From assembly GCA_949471785.1 (NCBI GenBank), contig CASWRE010000012.1, positions 1 through 64,000 of the forward strand: a stretch of 64,000 bases of DNA, read 5' to 3'. Position 1 is the stretch's first letter. Every line of letters begins with the position of its first letter. Origin of the DNA: an uncultured Lachnospiraceae bacterium (GTDB taxonomy: Bacteria > Bacillota > Clostridia > Lachnospirales > Lachnospiraceae). Below, piece by piece: positions 1,083 through 20,718 of this stretch. A program made the position numbers and the translations under genes. The notes under the pieces were generated by a model that saw nothing but the letters and a program-made list of their open reading frames with translations, ran no database searches and was not told where the DNA came from.

Positions 1083-2915
1083 ATGAAGGGATTATTGAAG
1101 TTTATTACGTGCGGCAGCGTGGACGACGGTAAATCAACGCTTATTGGGCATATGCTCTATGATGCCAAACTTCTTTATGCAGATCAGGAACGTGCATTGG
1201 AACTTGACAGTAAAGTGGGCAGTCGCGAGGGTAAAATAGATTATTCTCTTTTGTTGGACGGCCTTATGGCAGAACGCGAACAGGGGATCACGATTGATGT
1301 GGCATATCGCTATTTTACAACAGAGAGAAGAAGTTTTATCGTTGCGGACACGCCGGGTCATGAAGAGTACACCAGAAATATGGCGGTGGGTGCGTCTTTT
1401 GCGGAACTGGCAGTGATTCTGGTCGATGCGTCCCGGGGAATTATGACGCAGACGAGACGTCATGCCAGAATATGCGCATTGATGGGAATTCGGTATTTTC
1501 TGTTTGCAGTGAATAAAATGGATATCGTCCGTTATGATCGAAATATTTATCAGAAATTGGATAAAGAGATCCGGAAGCTGGCAGTGGATCTGGAATTAGA
1601 AGAGGTGCATGTGATTCCGGTTTCTGCTACTGAGGGCGATAATGTTACGCGCGTGTCGCCGCATATGCATTGGTATGAAGGAAAAACGTTACTTGAGTAT
1701 CTGGAAACCATCGACATCGAAGATGGGGCAAAGGAGCAGGGATTTGTTTTTCCTGTGCAGCGTGTTTGCAGACCCAGTCATTCTTTTCGGGGATTTCAGG
1801 GTGAGGTGGAATCCGGCAAGATCATGGTGGGTGAAGAACTGACGGCGCTTCCCAGCCGGGAAAAGGCGGTGGTGAAGTCTGTTTTAGTAACCGATCAGGA
1901 TAAAATGCAGGCTCGAAAAGGACAGGCAGTGACGCTTTCTCTGAATCGGGAGATTGATATATCCCGTGGATGTGTTCTTGTAAAAGATACGGATCTGGCT
2001 GTCTGCAGTATGTTTACATCGACCATATTATGGATGGATGACCGGGAATTGACCCAGGGAAAGAATTTTCTGCTTAAAATTGGCACAAAGATTGTTCCGG
2101 CATCTGTTATGGATATCAAATATCAGGTCGATATTCATACGGGAGAGCATTTGGCTGTCACCAGATTATATAAAAATGAAATTGCGGTCTGCGATATTTC
2201 TATGGCTGAAGAAATCGTATTTGATTCTTTTAAAAAGCATAAAAGCATCGGATGCTTCATTTTGATAGACCGCATGACAAATATGACGTCTGCCTGTGGT
2301 GTGGTGGAGCATCCCTTGAGAAGGTCGGAGAATCTTGTGTGGCAGAAATTGGATCTCACACGGGAGATCCGTGCAAAGAAAATGGGGCAGAAGCCCCTGA
2401 CCTTATGGTTTACCGGACTTTCTGGTTCAGGAAAGTCTGCGCTGGCGAATGAAATTGAGAAACGTCTGAGCGTCAGCGGACGATATACGATGCTCTTGGA
2501 TGGCGACAATGTTCGTTTGGGATTGAATAAAAATTTGGGTTTTGAACCGGAAGACCGCATTGAGAATATCAGGAGAGTTGCAGAAGTGGCAAAGCTGATG
2601 AATGATGCGGGGCTGATCGTTCTTACCGCGTTCATTTCTCCTTTTGAAGATGACAGAAAAAGGGCAAGAACCATTATCGGAACGGAGAATTTTGTAGAAA
2701 TATATGTGAGCACACCTTTGGAGGAATGTGAGCGCAGAGATGTGAAAGGGCTATATCGGAAAGCCAGAGAAGGAAAGATACCTAATTTTACGGGGATTTC
2801 AAGCCCTTATGAGGCGCCGGACCATGCAGATATAATAATTGATACTAGTAAGTATTCGTTGGATTTGTCTGTAGAAATAGTGTTAAAGAAGTTGGAAAAA
2901 TTTTCGGGACTATAA
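1083..2915 (+). CDS. cysNC: bifunctional sulfate adenylyltransferase GTPase subunit / adenylylsulfate kinase (CysN-CysC fusion)
   Basis: GTPase motifs GSVDDGKSTLIGHML, DTPGHEEYTRNM, NKMD; C-terminal APS kinase LWFTGLSGSGKSALANEIEKRL and LLDGDNVRLGLNKNLGF. Confidence 0.95.
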   Translation: MKGLLKFITCGSVDDGKSTLIGHMLYDAKLLYADQERALELDSKVGSREGKIDYSLLLDGLMAEREQGITIDVAYRYFTTERRSFIVADTPGHEEYTRNMAVGASFAELAVILVDASRGIMTQTRRHARICALMGIRYFLFAVNKMDIVRYDRNIYQKLDKEIRKLAVDLELEEVHVIPVSATEGDNVTRVSPHMHWYEGKTLLEYLETIDIEDGAKEQGFVFPVQRVCRPSHSFRGFQGEVESGKIMVGEELTALPSREKAVVKSVLVTDQDKMQARKGQAVTLSLNREIDISRGCVLVKDTDLAVCSMFTSTILWMDDRELTQGKNFLLKIGTKIVPASVMDIKYQVDIHTGEHLAVTRLYKNEIAVCDISMAEEIVFDSFKKHKSIGCFILIDRMTNMTSACGVVEHPLRRSENLVWQKLDLTREIRAKKMGQKPLTLWFTGLSGSGKSALANEIEKRLSVSGRYTMLLDGDNVRLGLNKNLGFEPEDRIENIRRVAEVAKLMNDAGLIVLTAFISPFEDDRKRARTIIGTENFVEIYVSTPLEECERRDVKGLYRKAREGKIPNFTGISSPYEAPDHADIIIDTSKYSLDLSVEIVLKKLEKFSGL

Positions 2916-3036
2916 GTATATATATTATATTAAATATATCTGCGGAAAGTTATTATGTTCAAGATTACAGAATGATAGAAAACTAATATGAAAGATATTG
3001 GCAGTGTAGTTATATGGAGGTAGTTTAAAACATTCA

Positions 3037-4209
3037 ATGAGAACAATCAAAGAAAAAAGAATTTTATTCAACTCCTGTGTGCAAGTGAAAAATACATTAT
3101 ATGCATTTACAAGTTTTGCCCATTTTATTGTTAAATTTGATTTGAAAACTAAAAAATTAGAGTTAGTTAAAGGATTGAAGAATTATAAACCATTTATCAC
3201 GCAGGACATAAAAAATGATGAGGAATCTATTTATGCTTTAGAATTGAATGGAAAGCGTATGTTGCAATATCATATTAGCAGCCATGAATGTTTCTATTTT
3301 AATATAGATTGTGATAAAAAAGGTTGGGGAAATTATGCCGCATTTGCAAAACGGGGAAATTATATTTATATTTTTCCTAAATACACGAATGCGTTAGTAA
3401 GGATTGATATGCAGGAGAATGCGGTATACAAGGAAACACAATTATACACGGAATCAAAGTATGCCGGGGAGGCTTTCCAAAAAGATGAGGATGCCTGTTT
3501 TGTCTGTGGGTGCCAGTGTATGGATACCGTCTGGCTTTTTCAGGATTGGAGCAATACACTCGTTGCGTATGATTTGAGTACATCCACATGGCAAAAATAT
3601 GAGATCCCCATGAAAGTAAGAAACTGTGTACATATCATACACTATAATGACGTGTTATATATTTTGAGCTCAGAAGGCCGTGTGTACACTTGGAATATAA
3701 ATGATTGTTCCATGGAGTTAATTACAGATTGTACCTCAGAGGAAGAAGAGAAGAATAAATTTTCAAGAATTGCTGTCACAGACAAAATGATAGTTATGCT
3801 TCCGGGGAGCGGAAAAGATATTGTTTGCATATCGCCGGATACTAAATGTACATGGATATATAGGGACTATCCCAAACAATTTCACTATTGTGCTCCCGAC
3901 TTTTGGAGTAAATATTGCGGATTTTGTGAAAATGAAGAAAAGTATTATTTTGCAATGCGGTCAGCAAATTATATTTTATGTATCGATAAACGAAATAGTG
4001 TGTTGCAATGGATAAAGCCGATTCCCTTTCCGAATGAAGAGGAATTTTTGATGTTTACTAAATATTATAAAAATAAATTGTTGTCAGAAGAAGATTGGGC
4101 ACTTAGAGATTTACTCGAATGTATAAATAGTGAAGATGATAAGGAAAAGAATAGTATTGACCGAATCTGCGGGGAAGAAAAAATATGGGGAGTACTGAAA
4201 AAATCATAA
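3037..4209 (+). CDS. uncharacterized protein, possibly beta-propeller/kelch-like
   Basis: 390 aa ORF with recurring hydrophobic/aromatic strand motifs (IYALELNGKRML, IYIFPKYTNALVRIDM, LYILSSEGRVYTWNI); no recognised catalytic motif. Confidence 0.6.
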   Translation: MRTIKEKRILFNSCVQVKNTLYAFTSFAHFIVKFDLKTKKLELVKGLKNYKPFITQDIKNDEESIYALELNGKRMLQYHISSHECFYFNIDCDKKGWGNYAAFAKRGNYIYIFPKYTNALVRIDMQENAVYKETQLYTESKYAGEAFQKDEDACFVCGCQCMDTVWLFQDWSNTLVAYDLSTSTWQKYEIPMKVRNCVHIIHYNDVLYILSSEGRVYTWNINDCSMELITDCTSEEEEKNKFSRIAVTDKMIVMLPGSGKDIVCISPDTKCTWIYRDYPKQFHYCAPDFWSKYCGFCENEEKYYFAMRSANYILCIDKRNSVLQWIKPIPFPNEEEFLMFTKYYKNKLLSEEDWALRDLLECINSEDDKEKNSIDRICGEEKIWGVLKKS

Positions 4210-5531
4210 AGGAAAGAGGATATAATAAGGAACAAGAGAAAGAAAAAATATATGTTTCAATATGGTGTATGGCCTATAATCACGAGCCGTATATAAAGGA
4301 TGCGATAGAAGGTTTCTTAGCACAAAAAACGGCTTTTAAATATGAAATAATTATCCACGATGATGCATCTACGGATAGAACAGTAGAAATTATAAAAGAA
4401 TATGAACAGAGATATCCATCAGTGATACGTGGAATTTATCAGGAAAAAAATCAGTATCAAAGTAATCCACAGAATTTAAAATGGCTCAGCAGCCTTAAAA
4501 TGAAGCATTGTAAGGGAAAGTATATTGCATTATGCGAAGGCGATGATTTTTGGATTGACTGTCATAAATTGCAAATTCAAGTGGACTATATGGAAGAACA
4601 TGCGGATTGCTCTTTATATATTCATAATGGAATAAAGTTAAATTGTCAAAATGGAACGGTGCAGGCAATTGAACCTTATGATGGAAAAAAAGAAAAAAAT
4701 ATTAGCGCAGAAGAGGCAATTATGCAATATAGAGGGCATCCGCCAACAGCGTCCATGCTTTTTAAAGCAGGATTGCTGAAAAGCCCGGATTTCTTTATGA
4801 CCACGCCAGTGGGTGATTATCCAACACAATTATTTTGTCTGACGCAGGGGAAGATCCACTATAGTAGTCGTATTATGTCGGTTTATCGATGGCTGAGTAA
4901 GGATAGTTATAATAGTGAAATGCTTAAAAGTAAGAAAAAGAAGTTCACGTTCAATTTGGGGATGGTTCGTTTTTTGGACCAATATGATCAATATACCAAT
5001 TATGAGTATCATGTATGGCTTGTTAGCAAAATTATGACTCATGTTTGTGGAGCTATAGCGGCTGCTGATTCTCAGATACCCTTGGCGGAATACTATAATA
5101 TATGTGAACAGCAGGGATTAGTAATGACGCCGGAATATAAGGTGTATTTAAAAGAAATGGAATGTCTGCGAAAACAACTGTTTGATGAAGAATATTGTTC
5201 AGATAAATTAAAAAAATTCACTGAAAAATACAAGAATATTGTTGTTATGGGAGCCGGCGTATATGGGGCAAAGCTGGCTGCTCAATTGGAAAATAATCAT
5301 ATAGATTTTCAGGGGTTTGCAGTGTCTCAAAAAGGAAAAAATGAAGAAATGTTAAAAGGTAAACAGATTTGGCAGCTTTCCGAGTTACCATTTACACAGG
5401 ATGACACAGGTGTAGTAGTGGGAATACTTCCATTTCATTGGGATAATATTATGCGTTCATTAAAAAAAGCAAAAATTAAACATTATATATGTCCATTTTT
5501 TTTAGAATATGAAAAGCAGGAGAAAATGTAA
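4185..5531 (+). CDS. glycosyltransferase family 2 with C-terminal Rossmann-like module
   Basis: VSIWCMAYNHEPYIKDAIEGFLAQKTAFKYEIIIHDDASTDRTVEII; C-terminal IVVMGAGVYGAKLAAQLENNHIDFQGFAVS. Confidence 0.85.
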   Translation: MGSTEKIIKERGYNKEQEKEKIYVSIWCMAYNHEPYIKDAIEGFLAQKTAFKYEIIIHDDASTDRTVEIIKEYEQRYPSVIRGIYQEKNQYQSNPQNLKWLSSLKMKHCKGKYIALCEGDDFWIDCHKLQIQVDYMEEHADCSLYIHNGIKLNCQNGTVQAIEPYDGKKEKNISAEEAIMQYRGHPPTASMLFKAGLLKSPDFFMTTPVGDYPTQLFCLTQGKIHYSSRIMSVYRWLSKDSYNSEMLKSKKKKFTFNLGMVRFLDQYDQYTNYEYHVWLVSKIMTHVCGAIAAADSQIPLAEYYNICEQQGLVMTPEYKVYLKEMECLRKQLFDEEYCSDKLKKFTEKYKNIVVMGAGVYGAKLAAQLENNHIDFQGFAVSQKGKNEEMLKGKQIWQLSELPFTQDDTGVVVGILPFHWDNIMRSLKKAKIKHYICPFFLEYEKQEKM

Positions 5532-5532
5532 A

Positions 5533-6244
5533 ATGATATTTCGATACAATTATCATAAAATAGAAGAGGATTACAATGTATTATTGAATAAAGATGTCAC
5601 TATATATTGTCGATCGGTTACCGCATTACAGGCGTATAGAAAATTCTCTAATCTCAATATTAATGTTATTGGATTTACGGATTCATATACGAATAAAGAG
5701 GGAGAAAAGTTTGCTGGTCTTCCGCTTTATACATTGGATTCATGACGGAGCTACAAGTCGTGATTTCTGCGCTTGGACAAATAGTATATATTCAAAAATA
5801 TACATGATGGAACCGGATTCATTAATGTATGAAATCATGAAAGAATACATAAATATTAATTCAATAAAAAATGCAATACCAATTAATTGCGGTGCATATT
5901 CCCGTACAGGGAAATTAAGATTTACAGAAGATTCTGAAACTGGATCATCCAAAATATCCGCAGATGGAGAAATAATTGTAGATGTAGTTTCGATAGATGA
6001 TATGTTGGAAGGTGGGGAAGCTACATTTATCAAAATGGATATTGAAGGTGCAGAAATGGAGGCATTAAAAGGCGCTGAGAAAACCATTAAATAATATAGA
6101 CCCAAACTGGCCATTTCTGTCTATCATAAAGAAGATGATTTGTGGGAAATACCGTATTATATTTTATCCAACTATCCATGGTATAAAATATATTTTCGCC
6201 ATTATGCGCTAACTACTAATGAAATGGTGATGTATGCTGTATAA
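5533..6244 (+). pseudogene. degraded FkbM-family methyltransferase with N-terminal Rossmann-like module
   Basis: N-terminal ORF stops at 5745; homologous text continues in another frame (IYMMEPDSLMYEIMKEY, INCGAYSRTGKLRF, VDVVSIDDMLE, FIKMDIEGAEMEALKGAEK), reaches an in-frame TAA at 6092-6094, then reads YRPKLAISVYHKEDDLWEIPYYILSNYPWYKIYFRHYALTTNEMVMYAV. Confidence 0.8.
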
Positions 6245-6303
6245 TATTTCTTGTTTGTGCTAATTATATTCTGATTGAAATTCGCCAAGGGAGTATATTT
6301 ACA

Positions 6304-7402
6304 TGTTTAGATTTTCTATTATAATTGTATGTCGTAACGCTGAAAAAATAATAAAAAGGACAATAGAAAGTGTTTTAGTCAAATATACCCATTTGTTGAA
6401 GTAATTGTTATTGACGGTGCGTCAGTAGATAAAACATTAGATATTCTAAATAAATATTCTGATGATAAAAGACTGTTAGTCTTCAGTGAAAAGGATTCAG
6501 GTATCTACAACGCTATGAATCGGGGTATTACAAAGGCCTCGGGCGATTATATCTATTTTTTAAATGCCGGTGATGTGTTTTATGATAAGGATGTATTATA
6601 TAAAGCCTCTGAATACATTATTACAGCAGATAAACCGGATATCCTTATCGGCAATTATATAGAAAAACGGCATGAAATATCAAAAATAGTGCATATGGAA
6701 GAGGGATGGGATTTGCGTGAAATCCTTCCTAAAGGAAGAGGGGTATGTCATCAGGCAGTTTTTGCGAAAGCGGCTTGCCTGCAGGGGGGGTTTAATGAAG
6801 AATATAGAATTGTTGCGGATTATGACTGGTTATGCAGGAAATTTTTAAGCGGATGCAGGATTGAATGGATTGACTTGATTATTTCGGAATATGACATATA
6901 TGGCGTGAGCAGTCTGGCGAAAAACTGGGTAGAAACAAAAGAGGAACGTCGCCGGATTGTTAAAGCATACTTTCCTGATATGGAAGAAAAAATTGATGAC
7001 GAGCTGGCGTTTCAATATGGACAGGCCAAGAATCAAAAAATGCAGGAATATTTGAGCGATATTTTGGCTTTGAAGCAAAGACATATCAGTCTGAGACAAT
7101 TTTTTAAAGAGCATTCTCTGTACGAGATATCTATTTATGGATTTCAATATCTGGGACAGAGGCTTTTGGAGGAACTGGAGGTTTCTGATATAAAAGTCAC
7201 TTGTGTGATTGACAGAGATCATTCGTTTCAGAATATGAAAGTTCCTTTGAAACATGCAGAGGATGAATTAGATGCCGTGGATGCTATTGTGGTCACACCG
7301 ATATTTGAATTTTACAGCATTAAGCAGGAGCTGCAGGATCGGACGCAAGCGGAAATTATATCAATAGAAGACATCATTAATAGCATGTATTCAGATATAT
7401 AA
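6304..7402 (+). pseudogene. glycosyltransferase family 2 with C-terminal Rossmann-like module, frameshifted near 6378
   Basis: MFRFSIIIVCRNAEKIIKRTIESVL in one frame, then QIYPFVEVIVIDGASVDKTLDILNKYSDDKRLLVFSEKDSGIYNAMNRGI in the frame of ORF 6515-7402; about 1 nt missing. Confidence 0.75.
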
Positions 7403-7459: not shown

Positions 7460-8701
7460 ATGGAAAGGAATACACCGGTTGTTTCGGTGATTGTGCCTGT
7501 ATATTCAGTAGAAAGATATTTACAACAATGTATTGATAGTATATGCAAACAGACATACGAGAATCTGGAGGTTATCTTGGTTAATGACGGCTCTCCGGAT
7601 AACTGTGGAGAAATCTGTGATAGAAATGCTGTTTTAGATTCAAGAATCGTTGTCATTCATAAAGAGAATGGAGGATTATCCAGCGCTAGAAATGTCGGGT
7701 TGGATATTGCGAAGGGTGAGTATATAGCTTTTGTGGATGCTGACGATACTATACATCCTTGTTTTATCGAAAAATTACTTGAGATGTGTTTGCGGTATAA
7801 TTGTGATATTGCGCAGTGCGACTACTTAGCAGTTTCAGAGGATTCTCTTTCGTTACCGCTGAATCCATGGCAGGAAATATCGTTTTATGATGGCAGACAG
7901 GCTTTGCATGAATTGTGCAGAGGGGGCGTGAATGCTATTAAATATACGGTGGCTTGGAATAAAATATACAAAAGAAAATTGTTTAGGTATATCCGGTATC
8001 CGGTTGGTAGAATCCACGAAGATGAATTTACGACATACCAGGTATTTTGGAAAGCAAAGAAGATAGCCATAACCAGGCAATATTTGTATTACTATCTCCA
8101 ACGCAACACAAGTATTATGGGAAGTGGTTTTTCCATAAAAAGGCTGGATATTTTGGATGCCTTCAGAGAACGCCTGGCTTTTCTCCAAAAAAAGAAACTT
8201 AAGGAAAATTATTTTCAAACTTTGCAGGGGCTCGTTGGGCTGTTAGAAAAAAATTATTATTTATTACAAGAAAATGGCAAAGAGAATGAAGCGATATGCG
8301 CCCGATTGTTACAGGAAAAAGAAAGTTTGGAGAAATTTCTTCCGGCATCCCCGATGGAAAAAGAAGATAAAGTGATTCCATGGCCGTTACAGAAGGGGCG
8401 TTGTCCCCATTGTGTCAATGCAAAGATATTGTTATATGGTGCAGGAAAATGGGGACAGAGATATTACCGGTGGATCAAAGAGCATAGACAAGGGGTAATG
8501 GTTGGTTGGGTAGATAATGCCTGGTATAGTTTGCAGCAGGAGGGGCTGCCGGTATCTCCATTAGATGCATTGCTGAGGCTGTCGTATGATTATATTCTGA
8601 TAGCGATTACGAATAAGGCGGTACAGGAGGAGATTGTCCAAAACTTTCTATACTGGGGAATTCCGAAAGAGAAAATATTGTCTATTCCGTCAGATGAATG
8701 A
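7460..8701 (+). CDS. glycosyltransferase family 2 with C-terminal Rossmann-like module
   Basis: VSVIVPVYSVERYLQQCIDSICKQTYENLEVILVNDGSPDNCGEICD; C-terminal ILLYGAGKWGQRYYRWIKEHRQGVMVGWVDN. Confidence 0.9.
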   Translation: MERNTPVVSVIVPVYSVERYLQQCIDSICKQTYENLEVILVNDGSPDNCGEICDRNAVLDSRIVVIHKENGGLSSARNVGLDIAKGEYIAFVDADDTIHPCFIEKLLEMCLRYNCDIAQCDYLAVSEDSLSLPLNPWQEISFYDGRQALHELCRGGVNAIKYTVAWNKIYKRKLFRYIRYPVGRIHEDEFTTYQVFWKAKKIAITRQYLYYYLQRNTSIMGSGFSIKRLDILDAFRERLAFLQKKKLKENYFQTLQGLVGLLEKNYYLLQENGKENEAICARLLQEKESLEKFLPASPMEKEDKVIPWPLQKGRCPHCVNAKILLYGAGKWGQRYYRWIKEHRQGVMVGWVDNAWYSLQQEGLPVSPLDALLRLSYDYILIAITNKAVQEEIVQNFLYWGIPKEKILSIPSDE

Positions 8702-8739: not shown

Positions 8740-9645
8740 ATGAAAACAATAAAAGTTAAATATGTTGATTTCTGGCCTGATTTTGATTATACCAAAGATG
8801 CGATTTACGAGGCATTGCTTTTAAGTAATCAATATAGTGTAGAAATATCGGATGAACCCGATTATATCATATATTCTACTTTTGGACATGAACATTTATT
8901 TTATGATTGCATCAAAATATTTTATTCAGGAGAAGATCAAAGTCCGGATTTTAACATTTGCGATTATGCTGTCAGTTTCGAATATATTCATTTTCTGGAC
9001 AGACATTTTCGGCTGCCGCTAATGTATCAACCCGGTTATCGTGTAGATTATAATAGAATGATACAGAAAGAGAAGAATTTTTTGCGCAAAAATAAATTTT
9101 GCTCTTTTGTATATTCGAATGCTAAAGCCGACGCATTCCGGGGAGAGTTTTGTGATCAGCTGGCTTTGTATAAGAAAGTGGACAGCGGTGGGAAATATAA
9201 AAATAATATAGGTGGAGCGGTTGTGAGCAAATATAAGTTCGAAAAGGAGTATAAGTTTTCCATCGCTTTTGAAAATGTCTCCCATCCGGGGTATATGACT
9301 GAAAAACTTATGCAGTCATTTGCTGCCGGATGTATACCGATTTATTGGGGTGATCCGCTGATTGGAGAGAGTTTTAATACGGACGCTTTTGTGAATGTTA
9401 TGGATTTTCCCAATGTACAGAAAGCTATTGAATATATCGTTTATCTGGATCAGGATGAGAAGGCGTATAATGCCATGATTGGAAAACCGGCGTTGAGAGA
9501 AAATAAGAAAATAGAAGTAGTGCAAAAGGAATTAATCCGGTTTGTAAATCATATTTTCGGACAGCCACTAAATGAGGCAAAGAGAACAACAGGGCAATAT
9601 TGGAATCGTAATTATGTAGAGTCAAAGCGGCGACAGGAGAAATGA
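8740..9645 (+). CDS. GT10-family (alpha-1,3-fucosyltransferase-like) glycosyltransferase
   Basis: GT10 C-terminal motif YKFSIAFENVSHPGYMTEKLMQSFAAGCIPIYWGDP. Confidence 0.9.
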   Translation: MKTIKVKYVDFWPDFDYTKDAIYEALLLSNQYSVEISDEPDYIIYSTFGHEHLFYDCIKIFYSGEDQSPDFNICDYAVSFEYIHFLDRHFRLPLMYQPGYRVDYNRMIQKEKNFLRKNKFCSFVYSNAKADAFRGEFCDQLALYKKVDSGGKYKNNIGGAVVSKYKFEKEYKFSIAFENVSHPGYMTEKLMQSFAAGCIPIYWGDPLIGESFNTDAFVNVMDFPNVQKAIEYIVYLDQDEKAYNAMIGKPALRENKKIEVVQKELIRFVNHIFGQPLNEAKRTTGQYWNRNYVESKRRQEK

Positions 9646-10853
9646 AAATGGTTGAAAAGTTTTCGCCGGATCAAAAGTTCAGCGCCTCGCTGATTAGCGT
9701 AATTATTCCCGTATATAATCTGGCCCCTTATATTCGTGATTGTATAGAGAGCATTCGAAATCAGACCTATGCCCAATGGGAAATGATTCTTGTCGACGAC
9801 GGCTCCACGGATGATTCTGGTATAATTTGTGATGAAGCGGCTTCTTGGGACTCCAGAATCCAGGTGATCCATCAAAAGAATGGGGGAGTCGTTGCGGCCA
9901 GGGGCAGAGGCCTTCAGGCCGCTTCCGGGAAATATATTTCTTTTGTGGACGGGGACGACCGGATAGAACCGAATATGATTGAAATGATGGCAGCGCATAT
10001 CGGCGGGGTCGATTTAGTTACGGTGGGAGTTTTTGAGCAGCTTTCACCGGATCAGACAGTGGAAAGATATGATGAGTTTCCGGAGGGACGCTACTCAGGA
10101 AATGAGCAACTTGGCGAGTTGTTAAAAAAGATGCTATATGATTCGGATAAGGAACGTCTGCAGCGCTTTACGCCCTGGTGCCATAACAAACTGTGGCGAA
10201 GGGAATTGCTGCGAAATGTGTATAAGGAAATCGATCCGCAGATAACTTTCGCGGAAGACGCCGTTCTCGTATACAAATACTTATTAAAATGCCGTTCTGT
10301 GGTTATCCTGCATCAATGTTTTTACCACTATCGCTATCGAAAAGAATCCGCTCTGCATAGGATGAATAACCGTATGCTGATGAATATCAACCGCGTATAT
10401 CTGGCGTTGGAAGCAGATTTCAGAGCGCACAGCCTCGCGGATTCCCTGCTTTTGCAGCTCCAAAAGTGGATTTTGATTATGGATATCTGGGCGATCAACG
10501 GTTATATGGGGTTTGACGAGCGGATTGGTATTCCGGAGTTTGTGATTGACACTTCCGGCCTGGAGAATAAAAGGCTGATTTTGTACGGCGCCGGGAGAGT
10601 AGGCAGAATGGCCTGTGGACAATTTAAGAAGTTCGGTTTTTCTGTAGTTTTATGGGTGGATCAAAATTATAGGCATTATCAGCGTATGGATATGCAGGTT
10701 GCTGCGCCTGAGGATATTTTGGACCGGGAATATGACGTCCTGTATATTGCGGTCAGTGAACGGACTGTGGCAGAAAAAATTAAAGCAGATTTACAGCAGA
10801 TGGGAATATCGCCCGGTAAAATCATTTGGAAAGAGCCTATGCGCATTTTTTGA
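9642..10853 (+). CDS. glycosyltransferase family 2 with C-terminal Rossmann-like module
   Basis: ISVIIPVYNLAPYIRDCIESIRNQTYAQWEMILVDDGSTDDSGIICD; C-terminal RLILYGAGRVGRMACGQFKKFGFSVVLWVDQ; 4-bp ATGA overlap with the upstream gene. Confidence 0.9.
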   Translation: MKMVEKFSPDQKFSASLISVIIPVYNLAPYIRDCIESIRNQTYAQWEMILVDDGSTDDSGIICDEAASWDSRIQVIHQKNGGVVAARGRGLQAASGKYISFVDGDDRIEPNMIEMMAAHIGGVDLVTVGVFEQLSPDQTVERYDEFPEGRYSGNEQLGELLKKMLYDSDKERLQRFTPWCHNKLWRRELLRNVYKEIDPQITFAEDAVLVYKYLLKCRSVVILHQCFYHYRYRKESALHRMNNRMLMNINRVYLALEADFRAHSLADSLLLQLQKWILIMDIWAINGYMGFDERIGIPEFVIDTSGLENKRLILYGAGRVGRMACGQFKKFGFSVVLWVDQNYRHYQRMDMQVAAPEDILDREYDVLYIAVSERTVAEKIKADLQQMGISPGKIIWKEPMRIF

Positions 10854-10905
10854 TGAAGGATCGTATTTTTGCCGGAACGATTGAGAAGAATTATGGAGAC
10901 AAATT

Positions 10906-12420
10906 ATGCCGGAAATGGGTTTAAAAATTAATGATAAAAATATCGTAATCTGGGGCGTGGGGGTTCTGCAGACGGATCTGGAAGGTCTGTATTCTTTCCC
11001 CAGCCTGTTATACTATGTGGACGACGACCTTCGGGAAGAAAATATGATCAGTGTGTCGCCGGATGAAATTTTTCCGTCTTCAAGACTGGAGAGGGAAGAA
11101 AGGGATCGCCTTCTGGTCATTGTATGCACACCGGATCAGGATGATGCGGTGGCCGGATTGAAGCGTATGGGGTATGGAGAAGAGAACTATATTCTGGGAG
11201 AGGAGCTTCTGGCTGCTCCATCCCTATATCATCGGATTTGCGCCCGGGAGATTTCTGTCTGGGGAACAGGTTATCTGTACGCCTCGTACGAGGATGAACT
11301 CCGCCGGTATGTACCGGATGTGACACGGTTTATCGTGACGGAAAAGAGAGAAGAATCGTTCCGTGGAAAAGAGGTCGTTTCTCTGAAAGAACTGCAGGAC
11401 GGCGCATTTGACTCGTATATCCTCGTCTCCACGATTTACTATAAGGAAATTTATAAAAGCCTGACGGCGCTGGGACTGCGTCCGGGAAAAGATTTTCTGC
11501 ACATAGAGACCATGCTTGCCATGGGGGCTCTGGCCGGCGGTGTGGACGGCACATTCCTGTTTGATGATCGGAAAAAGGACAGAGAGGACCTTCTGGTGGT
11601 TCTTGCGGGTTACAAAGAGTTTGTGTGGGACAGTGTTTTTGGCCGCTTAGAGGCTTTTGTGCCGGAACATGTGGATGTGTGCATTGTGACAAGCGGCTTG
11701 GTCAATCCGCGGCTTAGGAAAATGTGTGAGACGTATCAGTGGTCTTATATGAGTACGGATCGAAATCATGTATCTCTGGCGGTAAATCTGGCGATCTGGC
11801 ATCATCCGGAAGCGAGATATATTTATAAGATGGATGAAGACATCTTCCTGACGAAGGGAGTATTTGAGACGCTGAAAGCGACCTATGAAAAGGTGCAGCA
11901 GGAGAGCCGGTATGAGGTGGGCTTTGTCACGCCTCTGATTCCGGTGAACGGCTATGGCTATGTCCGGCTGCTGGAAATCTTTGGAGCGGATCAATTGTGG
12001 AAAGAACGATTCGGGGAACTCAAGTATACGATTGCCCTTCAGCACCACCGGACAATCCAGAAAAATCCGGAGGCAGCCCGGTTTATGTGGGGAGAAGGGA
12101 ATCCAGCCATGGAGAATCTGGACAGGGTGCAGGAGCGTTTGCAGGCAAGGGCATTTCAGTATTCGGTTTGTCCGGTGCGTTACAGTATTGGATTTATTTT
12201 ATTTCACCGGGAGAACTGGATTCGCCTGCGGGGATTTCCCGTGACAGTCAGGAATCTGGGGATGGATGAGACGGCTTTATGTGAATTCTGCATGATGCAG
12301 TCACGGGCCATGGTCGTGGCGGAGAATGCCGTGGTGGGGCATCTGGCTTATAATCCTCAGAATGAAGCCATGAAAGAGTACTATTATGCTCATAAAGAAA
12401 AGTTTCAGCTGTCTGTGTGA
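10906..12420 (+). CDS. glycosyltransferase-like protein with two N-terminal Rossmann-like modules
   Basis: IVIWGVGVLQTDLEGL and EISVWGTGYLYASYEDELRRYVPDVTRFIV modules; GT-A-like IYKMDEDIFLTKGVF. Confidence 0.65.
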   Translation: MPEMGLKINDKNIVIWGVGVLQTDLEGLYSFPSLLYYVDDDLREENMISVSPDEIFPSSRLEREERDRLLVIVCTPDQDDAVAGLKRMGYGEENYILGEELLAAPSLYHRICAREISVWGTGYLYASYEDELRRYVPDVTRFIVTEKREESFRGKEVVSLKELQDGAFDSYILVSTIYYKEIYKSLTALGLRPGKDFLHIETMLAMGALAGGVDGTFLFDDRKKDREDLLVVLAGYKEFVWDSVFGRLEAFVPEHVDVCIVTSGLVNPRLRKMCETYQWSYMSTDRNHVSLAVNLAIWHHPEARYIYKMDEDIFLTKGVFETLKATYEKVQQESRYEVGFVTPLIPVNGYGYVRLLEIFGADQLWKERFGELKYTIALQHHRTIQKNPEAARFMWGEGNPAMENLDRVQERLQARAFQYSVCPVRYSIGFILFHRENWIRLRGFPVTVRNLGMDETALCEFCMMQSRAMVVAENAVVGHLAYNPQNEAMKEYYYAHKEKFQLSV

Positions 12421-12478: not shown

Positions 12479-12877
12479 ATGAATCTGGAGAATAAAAACC
12501 TTAACCGTGACGGTTTCATCACGTTAAAGAGGTGGCTGGAGAACCGGAATGCAGGAAAGACATTTGTGGATTATTTCCATGAATATGGCTATCAGACCAT
12601 AGCGATCTATGACGCCGGGGAGCTGGGACAGATTTTGTACGGGGAGATCACAGGCTCCGATATAGCGGTGAAATATTTCGTAGACAGAAATGCGGAAGGC
12701 CTGCAAAATATCGACGGCATCCCCGTCATCCTTTTATCGCAGATCAAAGAGATGGATGAAGTGGACGCCTTGCTGGTCAGCCCCGTGGCTGATTATGATG
12801 CTGTGTGCCGGGTATTGAGCGAACTGTCGCCCCGGCTCCGTGTACTGGCATTCAAAGACGCTGTATATGAATTTTAG
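12479..12877 (+). CDS. small stand-alone Rossmann-like domain protein
   Basis: 132 aa; TIAIYDAGELGQILYGEITGSDIAVKYFVDRNAEGLQNIDGIPVILLSQI, matches the module attached to neighbouring GTs. Confidence 0.7.
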   Translation: MNLENKNLNRDGFITLKRWLENRNAGKTFVDYFHEYGYQTIAIYDAGELGQILYGEITGSDIAVKYFVDRNAEGLQNIDGIPVILLSQIKEMDEVDALLVSPVADYDAVCRVLSELSPRLRVLAFKDAVYEF

Positions 12878-12894
12878 ACAGGAGGTATGGTGGG

Positions 12895-14823
12895 ATGATT
12901 ACAACAGCCAGAACGACTTCCGGGGATTTTTTGGAAAACGGGATAGATAAGAGCTATGACGAAACTTTCGCCCTGATTTGTAAAAATATAGAATTTCAGA
13001 TCACAGACCGAAGGTTTGTCTATTTCATAGATGAAAATTATGTGATGGACACCACAAAGGGCACGCGTTATGAGAATCTGACGCCGGCCTATCAGAAGAT
13101 ATTGCATCAGGGTCTCGAACAGCTCAAGTATCGGGAGAAAGAGGTTACGAACAGATTCTGTCAAAGCTGTAACGCCCTTCTGGATGATTGGATGCTTTTG
13201 GCGGATCGGATCATGGATGCGCTGAGACAGTGTGATTTTGAGACAAAGAGGCAGGAGCAGTGGTTCAGGCGGCTGAAAGATTCTCCGGCGGAGGGGTTTG
13301 AGGAGGCTATCCAGAGAATGCTCTTTGTCAACCAGATGTTCTGGCAGACCGACCACAGACTGACGGGATTGGGCGCCTGGGATTCCTGGCTGCAGCCCTA
13401 TTATGAGGCGGACGTAGCCGCAGGCAGACTGGACAGGGCGGGGGCTCTGGAAATTCTGGAGGATCTGTACCGCATTTTGCATGAAAATTACCGGTATAAA
13501 AGTAACGTGCTGATGGGAGATACGGGGCAGATTTTCGTATTGGGCAGATCCGATGCGGAGGGAGGGTATTTTTGTAATGATCTGACGTATTTGTTTATAG
13601 AGGCCATGAAGAACGTGCAGCAGTCAGAACCGAAATGTCTGCTGAGGGTGAACAGGCATACGCCTAGGGATCTGGTGGAGCTTTCCCTTGAGTCCATTGC
13701 TACCGGTATCGGCGCGCCGCTGCTGGCCAATGACGACATGGTGATTCCCTGTCTGCTGGAGTTTGGCATTGAGGAGCAGGATGCCCGTGAGTATATGACT
13801 TCGGCTTGCTGGGAACCATTGATCGGGGGAAAGAGCGCGAGCCAGAACAACATGACGGCGCTGAATTATATGAAGGCCCTTGATAATCTGCTGAAAAGGG
13901 ATCGACTGGAAGAAATTCATTCTTTTGATGAGCTGCTGGAGCGTTACTTTATTTATTTGGAAAGGAATCTGCATGCCGTGAAACGGGTGCTGGCGGCCCG
14001 CCGTTTTCAGTATGATCCGCTGCTGTCTGTTTTTACGGAGGACTGCCTGGAAAAGAAAACGGATGTTTCCTGGGGAGGGGCGCGCTATCATGATGTGGGC
14101 GTCACGTCTGTGGCCATGGGAAATCTGGTGGACGTACTTTTGAATATAAAAGAATATGTGTTTGAACGGCAGGTCTATACGCTGTACGATGTGAAGAAAA
14201 TGTTGATTCGGAATTTTGAGGGGGAGGATGAACTGCTTGAGCGCCTGAGGGCAAGGTCTTCCCGGTACGGAACGGATGAGGAGGAGATCCTGAATCTGGT
14301 GAACCGTATCACGGCTTTTGTGTCGAAAGAAGTGGCAGGATACCGTTCTTACCAGGGCGGACGGATGAAGGCAGGACTCAGCGGTTCTGCCTATCTGGAT
14401 GCGGCAAAAGGATTTGGCGCGTCTTTTGACGGCAGGAAAGCCGGAGAGCCTTTTACCACCCATATCTCCAATGAAGATAATGACGGGTTTACGGAAATCA
14501 TGAATTTTGCTTCTCGGCTGGCATATGGCGCCGGAAGATTTAACGGCAATGTGGTGGATTTTATGGTCAATCCGGATTTTATCCATAACAATTGGGATAA
14601 ATTTGTGGATTTTCTTATGTTATGTATAAAAAAAGGCTTTTTTGAGCTGCAGATGAACGTGGTCAGCAGTAAGACTTTGCTGGAGGCCCGCAGATATCCT
14701 GAGGATTTTCCGAATTTGATCGTCCGGGTATGGGGATTCAGCGCCTATTTTAAAGATTTACCGGAAGATTACAAGGATGTGTTGATCGCCAGGGCTCTGA
14801 GGAACGAGGCCGTGTCGTCCTGA
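12895..14823 (+). CDS. non-canonical glycyl radical enzyme (PFL/diol dehydratase-like superfamily)
   Basis: 642 aa; NVLMGDTGQIFVLGRSDAEGGYFCNDLTYLFIEAM; active-site-like YMTSACWEP (Cys305); glycyl-radical-loop-like IVRVWGFSAYF (Gly614), 28 residues from the C-terminus. Confidence 0.92.
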   Translation: MITTARTTSGDFLENGIDKSYDETFALICKNIEFQITDRRFVYFIDENYVMDTTKGTRYENLTPAYQKILHQGLEQLKYREKEVTNRFCQSCNALLDDWMLLADRIMDALRQCDFETKRQEQWFRRLKDSPAEGFEEAIQRMLFVNQMFWQTDHRLTGLGAWDSWLQPYYEADVAAGRLDRAGALEILEDLYRILHENYRYKSNVLMGDTGQIFVLGRSDAEGGYFCNDLTYLFIEAMKNVQQSEPKCLLRVNRHTPRDLVELSLESIATGIGAPLLANDDMVIPCLLEFGIEEQDAREYMTSACWEPLIGGKSASQNNMTALNYMKALDNLLKRDRLEEIHSFDELLERYFIYLERNLHAVKRVLAARRFQYDPLLSVFTEDCLEKKTDVSWGGARYHDVGVTSVAMGNLVDVLLNIKEYVFERQVYTLYDVKKMLIRNFEGEDELLERLRARSSRYGTDEEEILNLVNRITAFVSKEVAGYRSYQGGRMKAGLSGSAYLDAAKGFGASFDGRKAGEPFTTHISNEDNDGFTEIMNFASRLAYGAGRFNGNVVDFMVNPDFIHNNWDKFVDFLMLCIKKGFFELQMNVVSSKTLLEARRYPEDFPNLIVRVWGFSAYFKDLPEDYKDVLIARALRNEAVSS

Positions 14824-14909: not shown

Positions 14910-17150
14910 ATGAAAAGAATAGGGGTTTATATCTGCAATTACAATGGAAAAGAATATTTGTTGAACTGTCTGGATTCACTTTTTCGGCAAACCCTGCAGG
15001 ATTTTGATGTCTGTGTGGTGGACAATGCGTCCACGGACGGATCGGCGGACGCGGTGCGGGCGTCATTCGGCAGCAGAGTTGAAGTGCTCTGTAACAGCGA
15101 GAACCTGGGAGGCTCCGGAGGCTTTGACAGAGGGCTTCGGACGGGGCTGGCCAGAGGGTACAGGTATATTGCCCTGCTTGACAATGACATTATTCTGGAC
15201 GATGGCGTGCTGGAACATATGACGGCTTATCTGGATGCCCGCGGGGATGTGGGCCTTGTCGGCTCTAAGGTCATGATTATGGATCGGCCGGATGTTCTCC
15301 AGGATTACGGGGATTATCTGGATTTTGGGGTGTACAGGGAAAAGTTCGGCTATGGCGGGCACAAAGACGACGGAAGTCTGCCGCTGGAAAACCTGTGCGA
15401 TTATGTGCCCAGCTGTGCGGTCATGGTCCGGGGAGATATTTTGCGGAGATCCGGGACGATGCCTGCGGACAATTTTATCTATTATGATGATATTGAGCTG
15501 TGTCATAAGATCCGGCTGGCGGGAGGGAAGATTGTCGCGCTGGGAAATGCGAAAGTCTGGCATAAGGGCGGTTTTCGTAAGGAGGAAGTGAGTACTTTCA
15601 GCAGATACTATTTTCTGCGCAACCGGCTTCATTTTTTTGCAAAGTATATAGCAGAAGAGGATATCGGGCGATTCATAGATACTATTTTGCAGGAAGTGTT
15701 TTCTCAACTGGCGGGATTTTATGGCAAAGGAATGGAAGAAATGTTTCACACAGCCATGTATGCCTTTGATGATTTCCTGCATCTGGTTCGGGGAAAAGCG
15801 GCGGAAGGAAAAATTTTACCGATCCGCCCCCGGAAGACGCCTTTGATGAGGGCTGTCGGGAAAAAACGGCCGGTTGTCATCAAATTCCGGGATAAAGATT
15901 CCGGCCGAGATACTCTGGACGCCTGGTTTGATCTGCTCAGGATACTCGCTGTCATTCAGAAAAGCGGGCCGCGGGATGAGATCGGGATATCGCTGGAGCA
16001 GTGCGGCTGTACGCCGGAAGAGTTTGAACAAAAGTTCCGTGAGGCCACAGGACAAAAAGAACAGGATTATCCGCTGCCGAAAATTTGCCTGGCAGAAGAG
16101 TGGGATGTTCTGCGGCGAATGACGCCGGGAACCGGGGACGATATAAATTCTGCAGTGACGTTGCGGATGTGCGGCCATGTAAAAAATGTAACTGTCCCGG
16201 TTCTTCCGGAGATTTATGTGGATAAATATGGTAATTGTATTACCAGTGGGGAAGAGTACCGGTTTTTTACGAATTTGGATACAAACGCACGCTTTTTTGC
16301 GGAAACTTATCGTCCGATCATGCTGCGGGCCGTGAGGAGCATAAGGAAAGATCCGGACGCCGGTGCAAAGATAAAAAATGGCGGTACTAAGCCGTTGATG
16401 ATTACCAATATCCAGCGTATGTGCTTTCATGACGGGCCGGGTATCCGGACGACGGTTTTTGCCAAAGGGTGCAGCCTGCACTGTCCCTGGTGTTCCAACC
16501 CGGAAAATCTGAGTTTTGCCGCGGAGCGTTATGAGAAGGACGGCGTCTGCGGCGTATACGGAAAAGCTTTCACTGCGGAGGAATTGGTAAAAGTTCTGAT
16601 CAAGGACCGGGATTTCTGGGGGGCGCAAGGGGGCGTGACCTTTTCCGGCGGCGAGGCTCTGATGCAGGCGGAGGCTCTGGAGGCAGTTCTTCGGGAGTTG
16701 AAAGGGATGGGCGTGCATACGGCTCTGGAAACGGCGCTTTTTGTGCCACAGGGGAATGTACGGCGGGTGCTGCCGTATCTGGATACTGTGATTGCCGATG
16801 TAAAGATTTTGGAGCCGGATGTGTGCAGAGAGATTCTCGGGGGAGATGTGGCGCGGTACAGAGAGAACGTGGATACCGTATATCGGAGCGGCAGGCTTGG
16901 CGTGTTCCGTGTTCCCTGCTGCGGGGAGTATACGCTTACCTCTGCCAATAAAGATTTGCTGAAAGAGTTTTTGAGGCAGTATCCCGATGTTCCGGTACAG
17001 ATTTTTGCCATCCATGGTCTGGGAGAGAAGAAATATCAGTCCCTGGGCCGTACCATGTGGCGTGGACAGGCCCTGGATCGGCGTGTTTTGGAGGAGTTTA
17101 GTTATGAGCTTATGGATGCAGGAATCAGGGCGGAAATTATACAGATTTAA
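14910..17150 (+). CDS. fusion of GT2 glycosyltransferase and glycyl radical enzyme-activating (radical SAM) domain
   Basis: N-terminal GVYICNYNGKEYLLNCLDSLFRQTLQDFDVCVVDNASTDGS and NLGGSGGFDRG, LLDNDI; C-terminal MCFHDGPGIRTTVFAKGCSLHCPWCSNPENLSF (CxxxCxxC) and GGVTFSGGEALMQ; a single 746-aa ORF. Confidence 0.93.
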   Translation: MKRIGVYICNYNGKEYLLNCLDSLFRQTLQDFDVCVVDNASTDGSADAVRASFGSRVEVLCNSENLGGSGGFDRGLRTGLARGYRYIALLDNDIILDDGVLEHMTAYLDARGDVGLVGSKVMIMDRPDVLQDYGDYLDFGVYREKFGYGGHKDDGSLPLENLCDYVPSCAVMVRGDILRRSGTMPADNFIYYDDIELCHKIRLAGGKIVALGNAKVWHKGGFRKEEVSTFSRYYFLRNRLHFFAKYIAEEDIGRFIDTILQEVFSQLAGFYGKGMEEMFHTAMYAFDDFLHLVRGKAAEGKILPIRPRKTPLMRAVGKKRPVVIKFRDKDSGRDTLDAWFDLLRILAVIQKSGPRDEIGISLEQCGCTPEEFEQKFREATGQKEQDYPLPKICLAEEWDVLRRMTPGTGDDINSAVTLRMCGHVKNVTVPVLPEIYVDKYGNCITSGEEYRFFTNLDTNARFFAETYRPIMLRAVRSIRKDPDAGAKIKNGGTKPLMITNIQRMCFHDGPGIRTTVFAKGCSLHCPWCSNPENLSFAAERYEKDGVCGVYGKAFTAEELVKVLIKDRDFWGAQGGVTFSGGEALMQAEALEAVLRELKGMGVHTALETALFVPQGNVRRVLPYLDTVIADVKILEPDVCREILGGDVARYRENVDTVYRSGRLGVFRVPCCGEYTLTSANKDLLKEFLRQYPDVPVQIFAIHGLGEKKYQSLGRTMWRGQALDRRVLEEFSYELMDAGIRAEIIQI

Positions 17151-17274: not shown

Positions 17275-18444
17275 TTGGAGATTTTTATGCAGGACGCCGT
17301 ATTTTACCAACAGGAATATAAGAAACTACAACAATTAAGAACATCTCTTCAGCAGTACAAAACCCTCTATTTCTACGGAGCGGGTCTCAGGGGCGAGGAA
17401 ATGCTGGAAAGACAGAAGGAGGGCATCCCCTTCTGGCGCAGGCCAAAGGCCTTTCTGGTAACGGACAAAAAAGATGCTGCCATTGTAGATCCCGGCCGGC
17501 TGGATGGGATTCCAATTCTTGGCATTGACGAGATAGAAGAATTTCCGGACGATTCGGCGGTCCTGGTGGTTGCCATGAGCTTTTATCATAAGGAGATCAA
17601 GGAACGGCTGGCGCGTATGTCCTCTTGTTCTCATGTTTATTATCTGACAGACGCCATGGAGCAGCTGCTTACAAGGGAATTTTTGTCGGCCTATCTTTCC
17701 AGGTATCAGCTGCCTTTCGGATTTCTCCCCTTTGGGGAGAGGGAGTCTGTGGAACCGCATCTGTATGCGAACCGGCTGCATATTTACAGTGTGATGTGCG
17801 AGCGGGATGCAAAAACAGCGGCACATTTTTCGGCGGTTCCGTGGATATCTGATTTGCAGGGCGGAGCCTCCAAGGCAAACAAAAGGTTTGCTGCAATGGG
17901 GGACGATACAGGCGAAAATATTTCCGATCAGAATGCTTACTATAATGAGCTGACCGGACTGTATTGGGTGTGGAAGAATACAAACCATGAATTTTCCGGG
18001 ATCTGTCATTATAGAAGGCGATTTGAATCGGAGGCGGCGATGTTGCCACTTTTGCGGGGGGAGGCCGACGTGATTCTGCCCCTTCCCGTTGTAGTGGGAC
18101 AGAATCTTCGGAGTTATTACCAGCATTGGGGAGAGGCTGCTTATTATGAGACGATGCTTCGGATGATAGAGGAAAAATATCCCGCTTATTACAATACGGC
18201 CTGCTGGTGTGCCGCCCATCCCGTATTTCTGCCCAACAATATCTGTATTGTCCGGAGAGAGATTTTGGAGGAGTACTGTTCCTTCTTATTTGACATAGTC
18301 TTTTCTGTGGAAAAGGAAATGGCCGCCTGCCCTGGGAAGAAGCAAAGCAGGTGCTGGCTGTCGGAGCATGTGTCTACCATTTATTTTCTTCAGCACTGCA
18401 GAGACTATCGAATGCTTTTTTCTAAGATTGAGAGGTGCTGGTAA
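17275..18444 (+). CDS. DUF4422-type glycosyltransferase with N-terminal Rossmann-like module
   Basis: TLYFYGAGLRGEEML; DUF4422-like GDDTGENISDQNAYYNELTGLYWVWKNTNHEFSGICHYRRRF. Confidence 0.85.
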   Translation: MEIFMQDAVFYQQEYKKLQQLRTSLQQYKTLYFYGAGLRGEEMLERQKEGIPFWRRPKAFLVTDKKDAAIVDPGRLDGIPILGIDEIEEFPDDSAVLVVAMSFYHKEIKERLARMSSCSHVYYLTDAMEQLLTREFLSAYLSRYQLPFGFLPFGERESVEPHLYANRLHIYSVMCERDAKTAAHFSAVPWISDLQGGASKANKRFAAMGDDTGENISDQNAYYNELTGLYWVWKNTNHEFSGICHYRRRFESEAAMLPLLRGEADVILPLPVVVGQNLRSYYQHWGEAAYYETMLRMIEEKYPAYYNTACWCAAHPVFLPNNICIVRREILEEYCSFLFDIVFSVEKEMAACPGKKQSRCWLSEHVSTIYFLQHCRDYRMLFSKIERCW

Positions 18445-19635
18445 ATGGACGATCGGATAAGTATTATTGTCCCTGTTTACAACGCGGACAGGTTTTTGGA
18501 TAAATGCATTGAGAGTATCCGTAAGCAGACCTATAAAAACCTTGAAATTATCCTTATCAATGACGGCTCCACGGATCATTCCCTGGAAATATGCGAGAAA
18601 TACGCGGCAAGGGATGAGAGGATTGTGCTTCAAAGCCAGAGGAACCAGGGGATTGTAAAGGCCCGGCAGGCAGGAGTAAGGATAGCTGCGGGAAATTTTA
18701 TTGGGTGGGCGGATGCGGACGACTGGATGGAGCCTGACTACATAGAAAATCTGCTGCGGCTGCAAAGAGAGTCCGGAGCGGATATTGTGGCTGTCGCCCA
18801 TTTCTGTGATATCGGGAAGGACTGCACCCTGATAAAGAACAATCTGGAACCGGGGATATATGACCGGGAGCAGCTGGCGCCGGTTATGCTTTGCGCAGGG
18901 GAGTTTTTTGAATACGGGATTAATCCCCATCTGTATACAAAGTTTTTCCGGGCTTCGATTCTGAAGAAGACACAGCCTATGGTTGACTCTTATGTTATCG
19001 CGGGGGATGATGCCGCAGTCGTGTATCCCAGCCTGCTGATGGCGGAAAGCGTGTGCGTGTCGGAGCTGTCAGGCTACCATTACGTCCAGCATCCGGGCTC
19101 CATAACGAAGACCGGATTCTCAGACGAGCAGGGGAGAGTTAAGGCGCTGATCGCTTTTTTGGAAAAGGTTTTTCGGGAGGCTGGGGTGATTTCAGAGACC
19201 TTTTGGCAGCTCGTGGCATATGAAAACTATCTGCTTTCCTTACGGAAGATAGAAGTCTTTGATGCGCCTGGCGAAGATCGCATTCTTGCACCTTTTGGAG
19301 GCCTTCGGGCGGGGGAGCGGATTGTGCTCTATGGAGCGGGCGCACTGGGGCAGGGGCTCTATGCTTATCTTAAGAGGGATGGGCGGACAGAGATAGCCGG
19401 ATGGCTGGACAGGAGCTGCGAGGCCTACCGGGAGCAGGGCTTCCCCGTCGACTGCCCGGAGCGGTTAAGAGATAGAGATTGGACATATGATTACATATTA
19501 ATAGCCAATGCCACGGAAAGTACGGCGATGTCTATCAGGAATTTTTTACTGTCTGTGGGTGTGAAGGAAGAAAAGATAAGGTGGTTTACAGAGGAGTTCC
19601 GGGGAAAGACGCGATTCGGGAAGCTGCGTTTGTAA
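18445..19635 (+). CDS. glycosyltransferase family 2 with C-terminal Rossmann-like module
   Basis: ISIIVPVYNADRFLDKCIESIRKQTYKNLEIILINDGSTDHSLEICE; RIVLYGAGALGQGLYAYLKRDGRTEIAGWLDRS. Confidence 0.9.
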   Translation: MDDRISIIVPVYNADRFLDKCIESIRKQTYKNLEIILINDGSTDHSLEICEKYAARDERIVLQSQRNQGIVKARQAGVRIAAGNFIGWADADDWMEPDYIENLLRLQRESGADIVAVAHFCDIGKDCTLIKNNLEPGIYDREQLAPVMLCAGEFFEYGINPHLYTKFFRASILKKTQPMVDSYVIAGDDAAVVYPSLLMAESVCVSELSGYHYVQHPGSITKTGFSDEQGRVKALIAFLEKVFREAGVISETFWQLVAYENYLLSLRKIEVFDAPGEDRILAPFGGLRAGERIVLYGAGALGQGLYAYLKRDGRTEIAGWLDRSCEAYREQGFPVDCPERLRDRDWTYDYILIANATESTAMSIRNFLLSVGVKEEKIRWFTEEFRGKTRFGKLRL

Positions 19636-19984: not shown

Positions 19985-20718
19985 ATGGCAAGAACCGTGG
20001 GAATTGGGCATCAGGATTTCGAGCAACTGATTACGAATGATTATTTTTATATTGATAAAACGATGTTTATCAAAGAATGGTGGGAAAGAGGGGATTCTGT
20101 CACCTTGATTACCCGTCCAAGGCGTTTTGGAAAGATCCTTTTATCTGTCCCGCTATTATAAGAAAAAAGTGATCATCCTTTTGGATGAGTATGACACACC
20201 GATGCAGGAGGCCTATGTGAACGGCTATTGGGAGGAGCCGGTATGACGGATTTACATTCGGAAACAGAAGAGACATCTACAATCCATGGTCTATCTCAAA
20301 TTATCTGGACAAGAGGAAGCTTTCCGCCTACTGGGCCAACACCAGCAGCAACAGTCTGATAGAAAAGCTGGTGCGGGAGGGAAATCCGGATATCAAAATA
20401 GCTATGGAGGATCTTTTGCACGGGGGCTGCCTCTCTGCAAAACTAGATGAACAGGTCGTGTTTAACCAACTTGGTTATAGAGAAAGCGCTGTCTGGAGCC
20501 TTCTTCTGGCAAGCGGCTATCTGAAGTTGAAAAGCTATAGGATTCAGGCAGGAAGAACACAATGTGAGCTTGCCCTGACCAACGGAGAGGTCCGTGTGAT
20601 GTTTGAGGAAATGATAGCGGATTGGTTTTCTGAGTTTACGCCGGCGTATAACGCGTTTATCAAGAGTTCAAACAGGATATTTTTTGGAAATACCATCGTA
20701 TCGGAAAATGGGCCATAA
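19985..20718 (+). pseudogene. degraded AAA-ATPase-like / PD-(D/E)XK nuclease-like protein (PF09820/PF08011-type)
   Basis: MARTVGIGHQDFEQLITNDYFYIDKTMFIKEWWERGDSVTLITRPRRFGK, then a broken frame with KKKVIILLDEYDTPMQEAYVNGYW, then NPWSISNYLDKRKLSAYWANTSSNSLIEKLV and ORF 20371-20718. Confidence 0.85.

Follow-up and report, generated by a model that had tools for sequence, protein, structure and literature searches.

The window, a 64,000-nucleotide stretch of DNA from an uncultured Lachnospiraceae bacterium, holds a gene for a glycyl radical enzyme (GRE) within a glycan locus, followed by a gene that fuses a GT2 glycosyltransferase to a GRE activase. The features of this part of the window are listed below.

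8740..9645, + strand: GT10, alpha-1,3-fucosyltransferase-like (PF18025, PF00852)
9642..10853, + strand: GT2 glycosyltransferase (Pfam)
10906..12420, + strand: 504-aa protein without a Pfam match; homologs adjoin the GRE cluster in 6 loci
12479..12877, + strand: Rossmann-like protein, 132 aa, without a Pfam match; directly upstream of the GRE in 8/8 loci of the window's subclade
12880..12885, + strand: Shine-Dalgarno sequence AGGAGG of the GRE gene, 9 nt upstream of the ATG
12895..14823, + strand: GRE, eliminase type, 642 aa (open reading frame, Pfam, AlphaFold2 model, tree, alignment)
14910..17150, + strand: fusion of GT2 glycosyltransferase and GRE activase, 746 aa (Pfam, NCBIfam, model, Foldseek)
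14910..15779, + strand: GT2 (GT-A) domain of the fusion, GlfT/rhamnosyltransferase-like (PF00535, E=1e-21; top Foldseek match GlfT2, over residues 46-250)
16392..17150, + strand: radical-SAM activase domain of the fusion, of PFL-activating-enzyme size and without a ferredoxin-like insert (TIGR02494 above cut-off; PFL-activating enzyme 3c8f, TMt 0.86)
16470..16493, + strand: CxxxCxxC [4Fe-4S]/AdoMet motif of the activase (C521, C525, C528; sequence)
17275..18444, + strand: DUF4422 protein (PF14393)
18445..19635, + strand: GT2 glycosyltransferase (Pfam)

The GRE reading frame is uninterrupted over its 642 codons, exactly as an earlier note on this DNA had placed it. Pfam finds PF02901 (PFL-like, E=9e-70) and PF01228 (Gly_radical, E=8e-12), and an AlphaFold2 model based on a 25-sequence alignment is confident (pLDDT 91.3, pTM 0.91). 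Foldseek matches this model to GRE eliminase crystal structures, namely those of 1,2-propanediol dehydratase, glycerol dehydratase, PflD and CutC. A PFL-like barrel and a C-terminal Gly radical domain are thus present by Pfam, model and Foldseek alike. The GRE is the sole PF02901 gene found in its own genome, which is 84.5% complete. Compared with five close homologs, the gene shows a dN of ~0.2 against a dS that has reached or nearly reached saturation, which indicates purifying selection. A scan for promoters and terminators returned counts slightly above those of shuffled sequences.

The catalytic residues described in the earlier note are all in place. Cys305 lies in a C-x-E-P motif (Cys305-Trp306-Glu307-Pro308) and Gly614 in the loop IVRVWG614FSAYF; both residues are invariant within conserved loops of the family alignment, and Glu307, two residues past the catalytic cysteine, is found in 20/20 members. 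C-x-E is a conserved eliminase feature according to PMC8473560, and the motif together with the predicted fold supports assignment of the GRE to the C-x-E eliminase type, the reading that the note had reached. The adjacent-Cys pair of pyruvate formate-lyase, which the note had found missing, is replaced by a single cysteine, and TIGR01255 gives 36 bits against a cut-off of 994. Trp613 and Ala304, in positions that it had called unusual, are a family trait: like Trp306, they are invariant in 20 members and absent from the 12 characterised-type GREs aligned, and the sister clade has them too. The protein is also shorter than typical GREs, its N terminus falling ~95 aa short of that of PflD.

Glycosyltransferases had been placed on both flanks of the GRE, and this stands only in part. 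The direct upstream gene (12479-12877) encodes the small Rossmann-like protein; the downstream gene does contain a glycosyltransferase, and also the cognate radical-SAM activase with its CxxxCxxC motif, which had been missed. In the fusion, the GT2 domain spans residues 1 to ~290 and the activase residues 495-746, and the model shows two confidently predicted domains with a poorly ordered stretch between them. Foldseek identifies GlfT2 (4fix) for the GT2 half and PFL-activating enzyme (3c8f) for the activase half. The activase adjoins the GRE in homologous loci. Two near relatives (loci L002 and L006) encode this GT2 type and the activase in two separate genes that adjoin and nearly overlap, so the fusion joins neighbours. 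It was found in one genome, that of the window, and could have arisen from a single-base assembly error. A second, distinct fusion, also seen in one genome, is the 988-aa protein of L040, in which the GRE itself is joined to a GT2 of this type. No GT2-activase fusion was found described in the accessible portions of the open-licence literature searched.

A ferredoxin-like, Cys-rich insert is missing from the activases of L002-L007, L030-L032, L034, L035, L037, L038, L041, L042 and the window, and is kept in those of L029, L033, L036, L039, L040 and the sister clade, which suggests repeated loss. Elsewhere in the window, three GT2 proteins (7460-8701, 9642-10853 and 18445-19635) end in a Rossmann-like domain similar to the free-standing 132-aa protein. 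At 5594-7402, two pieces appear to be genes that are broken or truncated: one of 166 aa is FkbM methyltransferase-like, and the other is GT2-like, its match to the profile starting only at position 70. Four loci have members of one AAA-ATPase_like/PDDEXK_9 family close to the GRE: the window (20371-20718, a short piece), L002 (9453-14681, three copies), L006 (14231-15982) and L029 (14436-16013).

The GRE family and its genomic context

With 100/100 support, the tree unites the 20 full-length homologs, which come from Lachnospirales and other Clostridia, in a single clade; PflD and YbiW of E. coli, CutC, HypD and HpfG fall outside both this clade and its sister. The GRE also scores below every NCBIfam equivalog cut-off by a wide margin, and so lies within no characterised GRE group, in line with the reading of the earlier note. 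Searches of genome contigs recovered homologs with 62-74% identity in six Lachnospiraceae MAGs, and homologs are always confined to a small minority of the sampled Clostridia genomes. In the family sample, 11/396 genomes have a match at E<=1e-75, counting the window's own genome and one whose match is a sister-clade GRE, and a phylum-wide sample of 398 genomes contains no member apart from the own genome. The one same-genus genome listed has no homolog, viral contigs hold no relative, and plasmids carry only distant GREs (26-29% identity among the matches listed). In L031 (G364:C51), the homolog at 5646-7022 is interrupted and lacks the Gly loop, so the gene appears to be broken in this one carrier.

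The family is consistently found among glycan genes, as the glycan reading of the earlier note would require. A glycosyltransferase and/or Wzx flippase gene is present in 21/21 family loci versus 1/22 comparison GRE loci, and no homolog in a non-glycan context was seen among the 21. The comparison set combines GREs of the sister and PflD-like kinds with further GREs from the carrier genomes; a single one of the 22 has a GT2. GT2 and/or Wzx lie within 9 kb of the GRE in 20/21 family loci, the remaining one (L029) having a WbsX glycosyltransferase. Counted uniformly, this gives 20/21 versus 1/22 (Fisher p=5e-10), a value to be read with the fact that the GT2 and Wzx profiles were built here and partly seeded from family loci, which possibly favours the family. 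Seeding alone does not account for a fold difference this large.

One glycosyltransferase type stands out. Type-A GT2, the subtype of the fusion, is fused to the GRE or activase or lies at +-1 gene in 10/21 loci, a position in which other GT2s never occur; in loci outside the subtype-profile seed, the counts are 7/11 for type A and 0/13 for other GT2s (p=0.001). A Wzx homolog accompanies the GRE and activase in 11 loci of the second subgroup. Neighbour clustering shows that the genes recurring in at least six loci are glycosyltransferases, activase and Wzx, along with the 132-aa and 504-aa proteins, which are mainly in the window's subclade. No sugar-specific companion from which the substrate could be read emerged as conserved from this clustering, and no follow-up enzyme (reductase, aminotransferase) is conserved across the loci, although one might be anticipated if the product is a keto-sugar. 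That no further sugar enzyme is conserved suggests that the substrate is a common precursor or a lipid-linked unit. Galactofuranose was considered and not adopted, as UDP-galactopyranose mutase is present in 3 loci only. In L032, a GRE locus with LicD, a 669-aa protein (2558-4567) combines NTP-transferase, cytidylyltransferase-like and PEP-mutase domains and probably serves phosphonate decoration of the glycan of that locus.

The active site and substrate pocket

The residues that define the active site are the following.

13075..13077, + strand: Asn61, equivalent to CutC Asp216 and HypD His160 at the common beta-1 substrate-contact site; Asn throughout the family and sister clade (alignment)
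13519..13521, + strand: Asp209, in place of the beta-3 Phe389 of CutC; family-invariant (alignment)
13633..13635, + strand: Lys247, invariant in the family and sister clade; Asn, Ser, Thr or Trp in other aligned GREs
13807..13815, + strand: Cys305-Trp306-Glu307, the thiyl radical Cys, the unusual Trp and the catalytic Glu of the C-x-E motif (alignment)
13846..13848, + strand: Asn318, equivalent to CutC Thr502; Asn is family-invariant (alignment)
14731..14736, + strand: Trp613-Gly614, the radical Gly preceded by Trp; this position is Ala in all other eliminases compared except the sister clade

The pocket was mapped by alignment to CutC, using active-site residues given in PMC12451663 and PMC8473560, the latter also describing the beta-1 substrate-contact site of GREs. 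CutC Cys489, Glu491 and Gly821 align with Cys305, Glu307 and Gly614, whereas the residues of the CutC substrate pocket differ. The beta-1 position is Asp in CutC, His in HypD and Gln in IslA, and is occupied by the invariant Asn61 in the family. CutC Phe389 is replaced by the invariant Asp209 and Thr502 by Asn318, while Phe395 and Leu698 have no counterpart. In place of Met487 stands Ser (Ala in one member), Tyr506 is mostly a small or polar residue (with one Phe), and Ile700 is Gly, Ser or Ala. Val490 beside the cysteine and Ala820 beside the glycine are both Trp. Lys202, Lys247 and Lys492 are invariant, as are W306, W613, N61, D209 and N318, five residues not seen in PflD, YbiW, CutC, HypD or HpfG. 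The pocket residues are unlike those of any characterised subfamily compared. Judged from the alignment, it appears to have lost an aromatic lid and gained polar groups, and would be larger and more polar than the CutC pocket.

The sister clade (AACWE and VRVWGWSGYF motifs; L043 and L045-L047) joins the family at 100/100. It shares both Trp residues, Asn61, Asp209 and Lys247, but lacks His196, Lys202 and Asn318, and several of its loci are sugar-uptake loci; no GT2 or Wzx lies near the sister GREs. In L047, the sister GRE is accompanied by an RpiR regulator, an ADP-PFK/GK-like kinase, a class II aldolase and a sugar ABC transporter. The sister enzyme looks like an apparently uncharacterised radical enzyme of sugar degradation. 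A sugar ABC system also lies beside the sister GRE of L043, and L101, with its sister GRE at 8866-10947, contains ABC-transporter-like genes.

Proposed function and alternative readings

Given the glycan locus, the activase and the type-A GT2 partner, we favour, with modest confidence, the reading that the GRE is a dedicated glycyl radical eliminase of surface-glycan assembly. Among eliminase types, it is probably a dehydratase. The simplest reading of its reaction would be dehydration, or another C-O cleavage, of a sugar or polyol unit used by the partner GT2. The sugar or polyol substrate proposed in the earlier note gains support from the nearest relative PflD, from the sugar-catabolic contexts of the sister clade and from the remodelled pocket, though the substrate and the reaction are both ones that we infer.

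In C-x-E eliminases, hydrogen is taken from a carbinol carbon and the neighbouring group is expelled. Here, the activase, fused to GT2 in the window, would put a radical on Gly614, from which it would move to Cys305. The Cys305 thiyl would abstract hydrogen from a hydroxyl-bearing carbon of the sugar or polyol unit, with Glu307 acting as the base for that hydroxyl. The ketyl-type radical would then expel the neighbouring C-O group, most likely as water, to leave a deoxy-oxo unit, after which hydrogen would be returned from Cys305 and the radical to Gly614. The GT2 that is fused or adjacent would then act on the product or on a glycan bearing it, and the adjacent Wzx would probably see to export in many loci. 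Candidate substrate classes are nucleotide sugars, sugar phosphates and lipid-linked sugars; a nucleotide- or lipid-linked substrate would suit both the opened pocket and the glycosyltransferase fusion.

Other readings were weighed against this one. The substrate might be not a sugar ring but a glycerol or ribitol derivative, either the polyol phosphate or the CDP-polyol, which would be built into a polymer or added as a teichoic-like substituent. Five loci (L003, L005, L029, L032 and L034) do contain genes of cytidylyltransferase-like, LicD or IspD/TarI-like type, and glycerol dehydratase and other characterised GREs for small polyols match the GRE in fold. However, those genes are present in a minority of the 21 loci, where the common companions are glycosyltransferases, activase and often Wzx, and we regard this reading as improbable. 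To the same degree improbable is that the Cys/Glu/Gly core performs some other radical chemistry on the glycan, such as uronic acid decarboxylation, isomerisation/epimerisation or C-N cleavage. The C-x-E motif is also found in GRE arylacetate decarboxylases, and the pocket residues resemble no characterised subfamily compared, but PflD, the closest relative by sequence, cleaves a C-O bond in a sugar phosphate, and no uronate-forming dehydrogenase is conserved in the family loci.

Less likely still is an ordinary catabolic or small-molecule GRE that came by chance to lie within a variable glycan locus. Glycan loci do collect unrelated genes, and the sister clade looks catabolic; the contrast between the 21/21 family loci with glycan genes and the 1/22 comparison GREs nevertheless speaks against coincidence, as do the fusion and the recurrent adjacency to one GT2 type. 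A decayed enzyme without activity, which the short N terminus and the interrupted copy in G364 might suggest, is very unlikely given the invariant catalytic residues in 20 members, the dedicated activase, the purifying selection and the confident, complete predicted fold.

Returning to an eliminase of glycan assembly, we suggest more tentatively that these anaerobic gut bacteria may use a glycyl-radical route to deoxygenate or otherwise rearrange a surface-glycan unit, with the GRE physically coupled to the glycosyltransferase that uses it. The family would be a GRE subfamily not described before, found in a biological setting that is new for these enzymes; in the accessible portions of the open-licence literature searched, no GRE in glycan assembly was found described, and the compared GREs with known substrates belong to catabolism or central metabolism. 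If true, the glycyl-radical route would be the oxygen-sensitive equivalent of the NAD-dependent nucleotide-sugar dehydratases and would yield sugars that have not been described so far. A link between a GRE clade and glycan assembly would also bring radical chemistry into polysaccharide biosynthesis. It would lead one to expect that surface antigens of gut Lachnospiraceae depend on oxygen, and it would provide an enzyme with which sugars could be selectively deoxygenated. As the fusions name the partner glycosyltransferase, the substrate question is directly testable.

Comparison with known systems

PflD is the best sequence match of the GRE both in the PDB and among the NCBIfam equivalogs. 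This 1,5-anhydromannitol-6-phosphate lyase (E. coli; S. dysgalactiae, PDB 8id0 and 8yjo), which cleaves its substrate at a C-O bond according to PMC12441222, has the same fold and the same Cys, Glu and Gly. It was compared alongside YbiW, a 1,5-anhydroglucitol-6-phosphate lyase. Both share only ~25% identity with the GRE and form separate clades, and NF007437 gives the GRE 227 bits against a cut-off of 1109, placing it outside the PflD/YbiW group. At the active site, the beta-1 His is replaced by Asn, the Phe of PflD or Ser of YbiW by Asp209, and both catalytic loops carry Trp in the GRE. Their loci have a PTS/aldolase context, whereas that of the GRE is glycan assembly.

CutC, HypD, the glycerol and 1,2-propanediol dehydratases, IslA and HpfG have the C-x-E core and the fold in common with the GRE. 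Their substrate-contact residues, however, are not kept, and the GRE falls below the NCBIfam cut-offs where models exist (CutC, HypD, HpfG/HpsG and the aryl decarboxylases among the equivalogs). The two halves of the 746-aa fusion, for their part, match the galactofuranosyltransferase GlfT2 and the PFL-activating enzyme.
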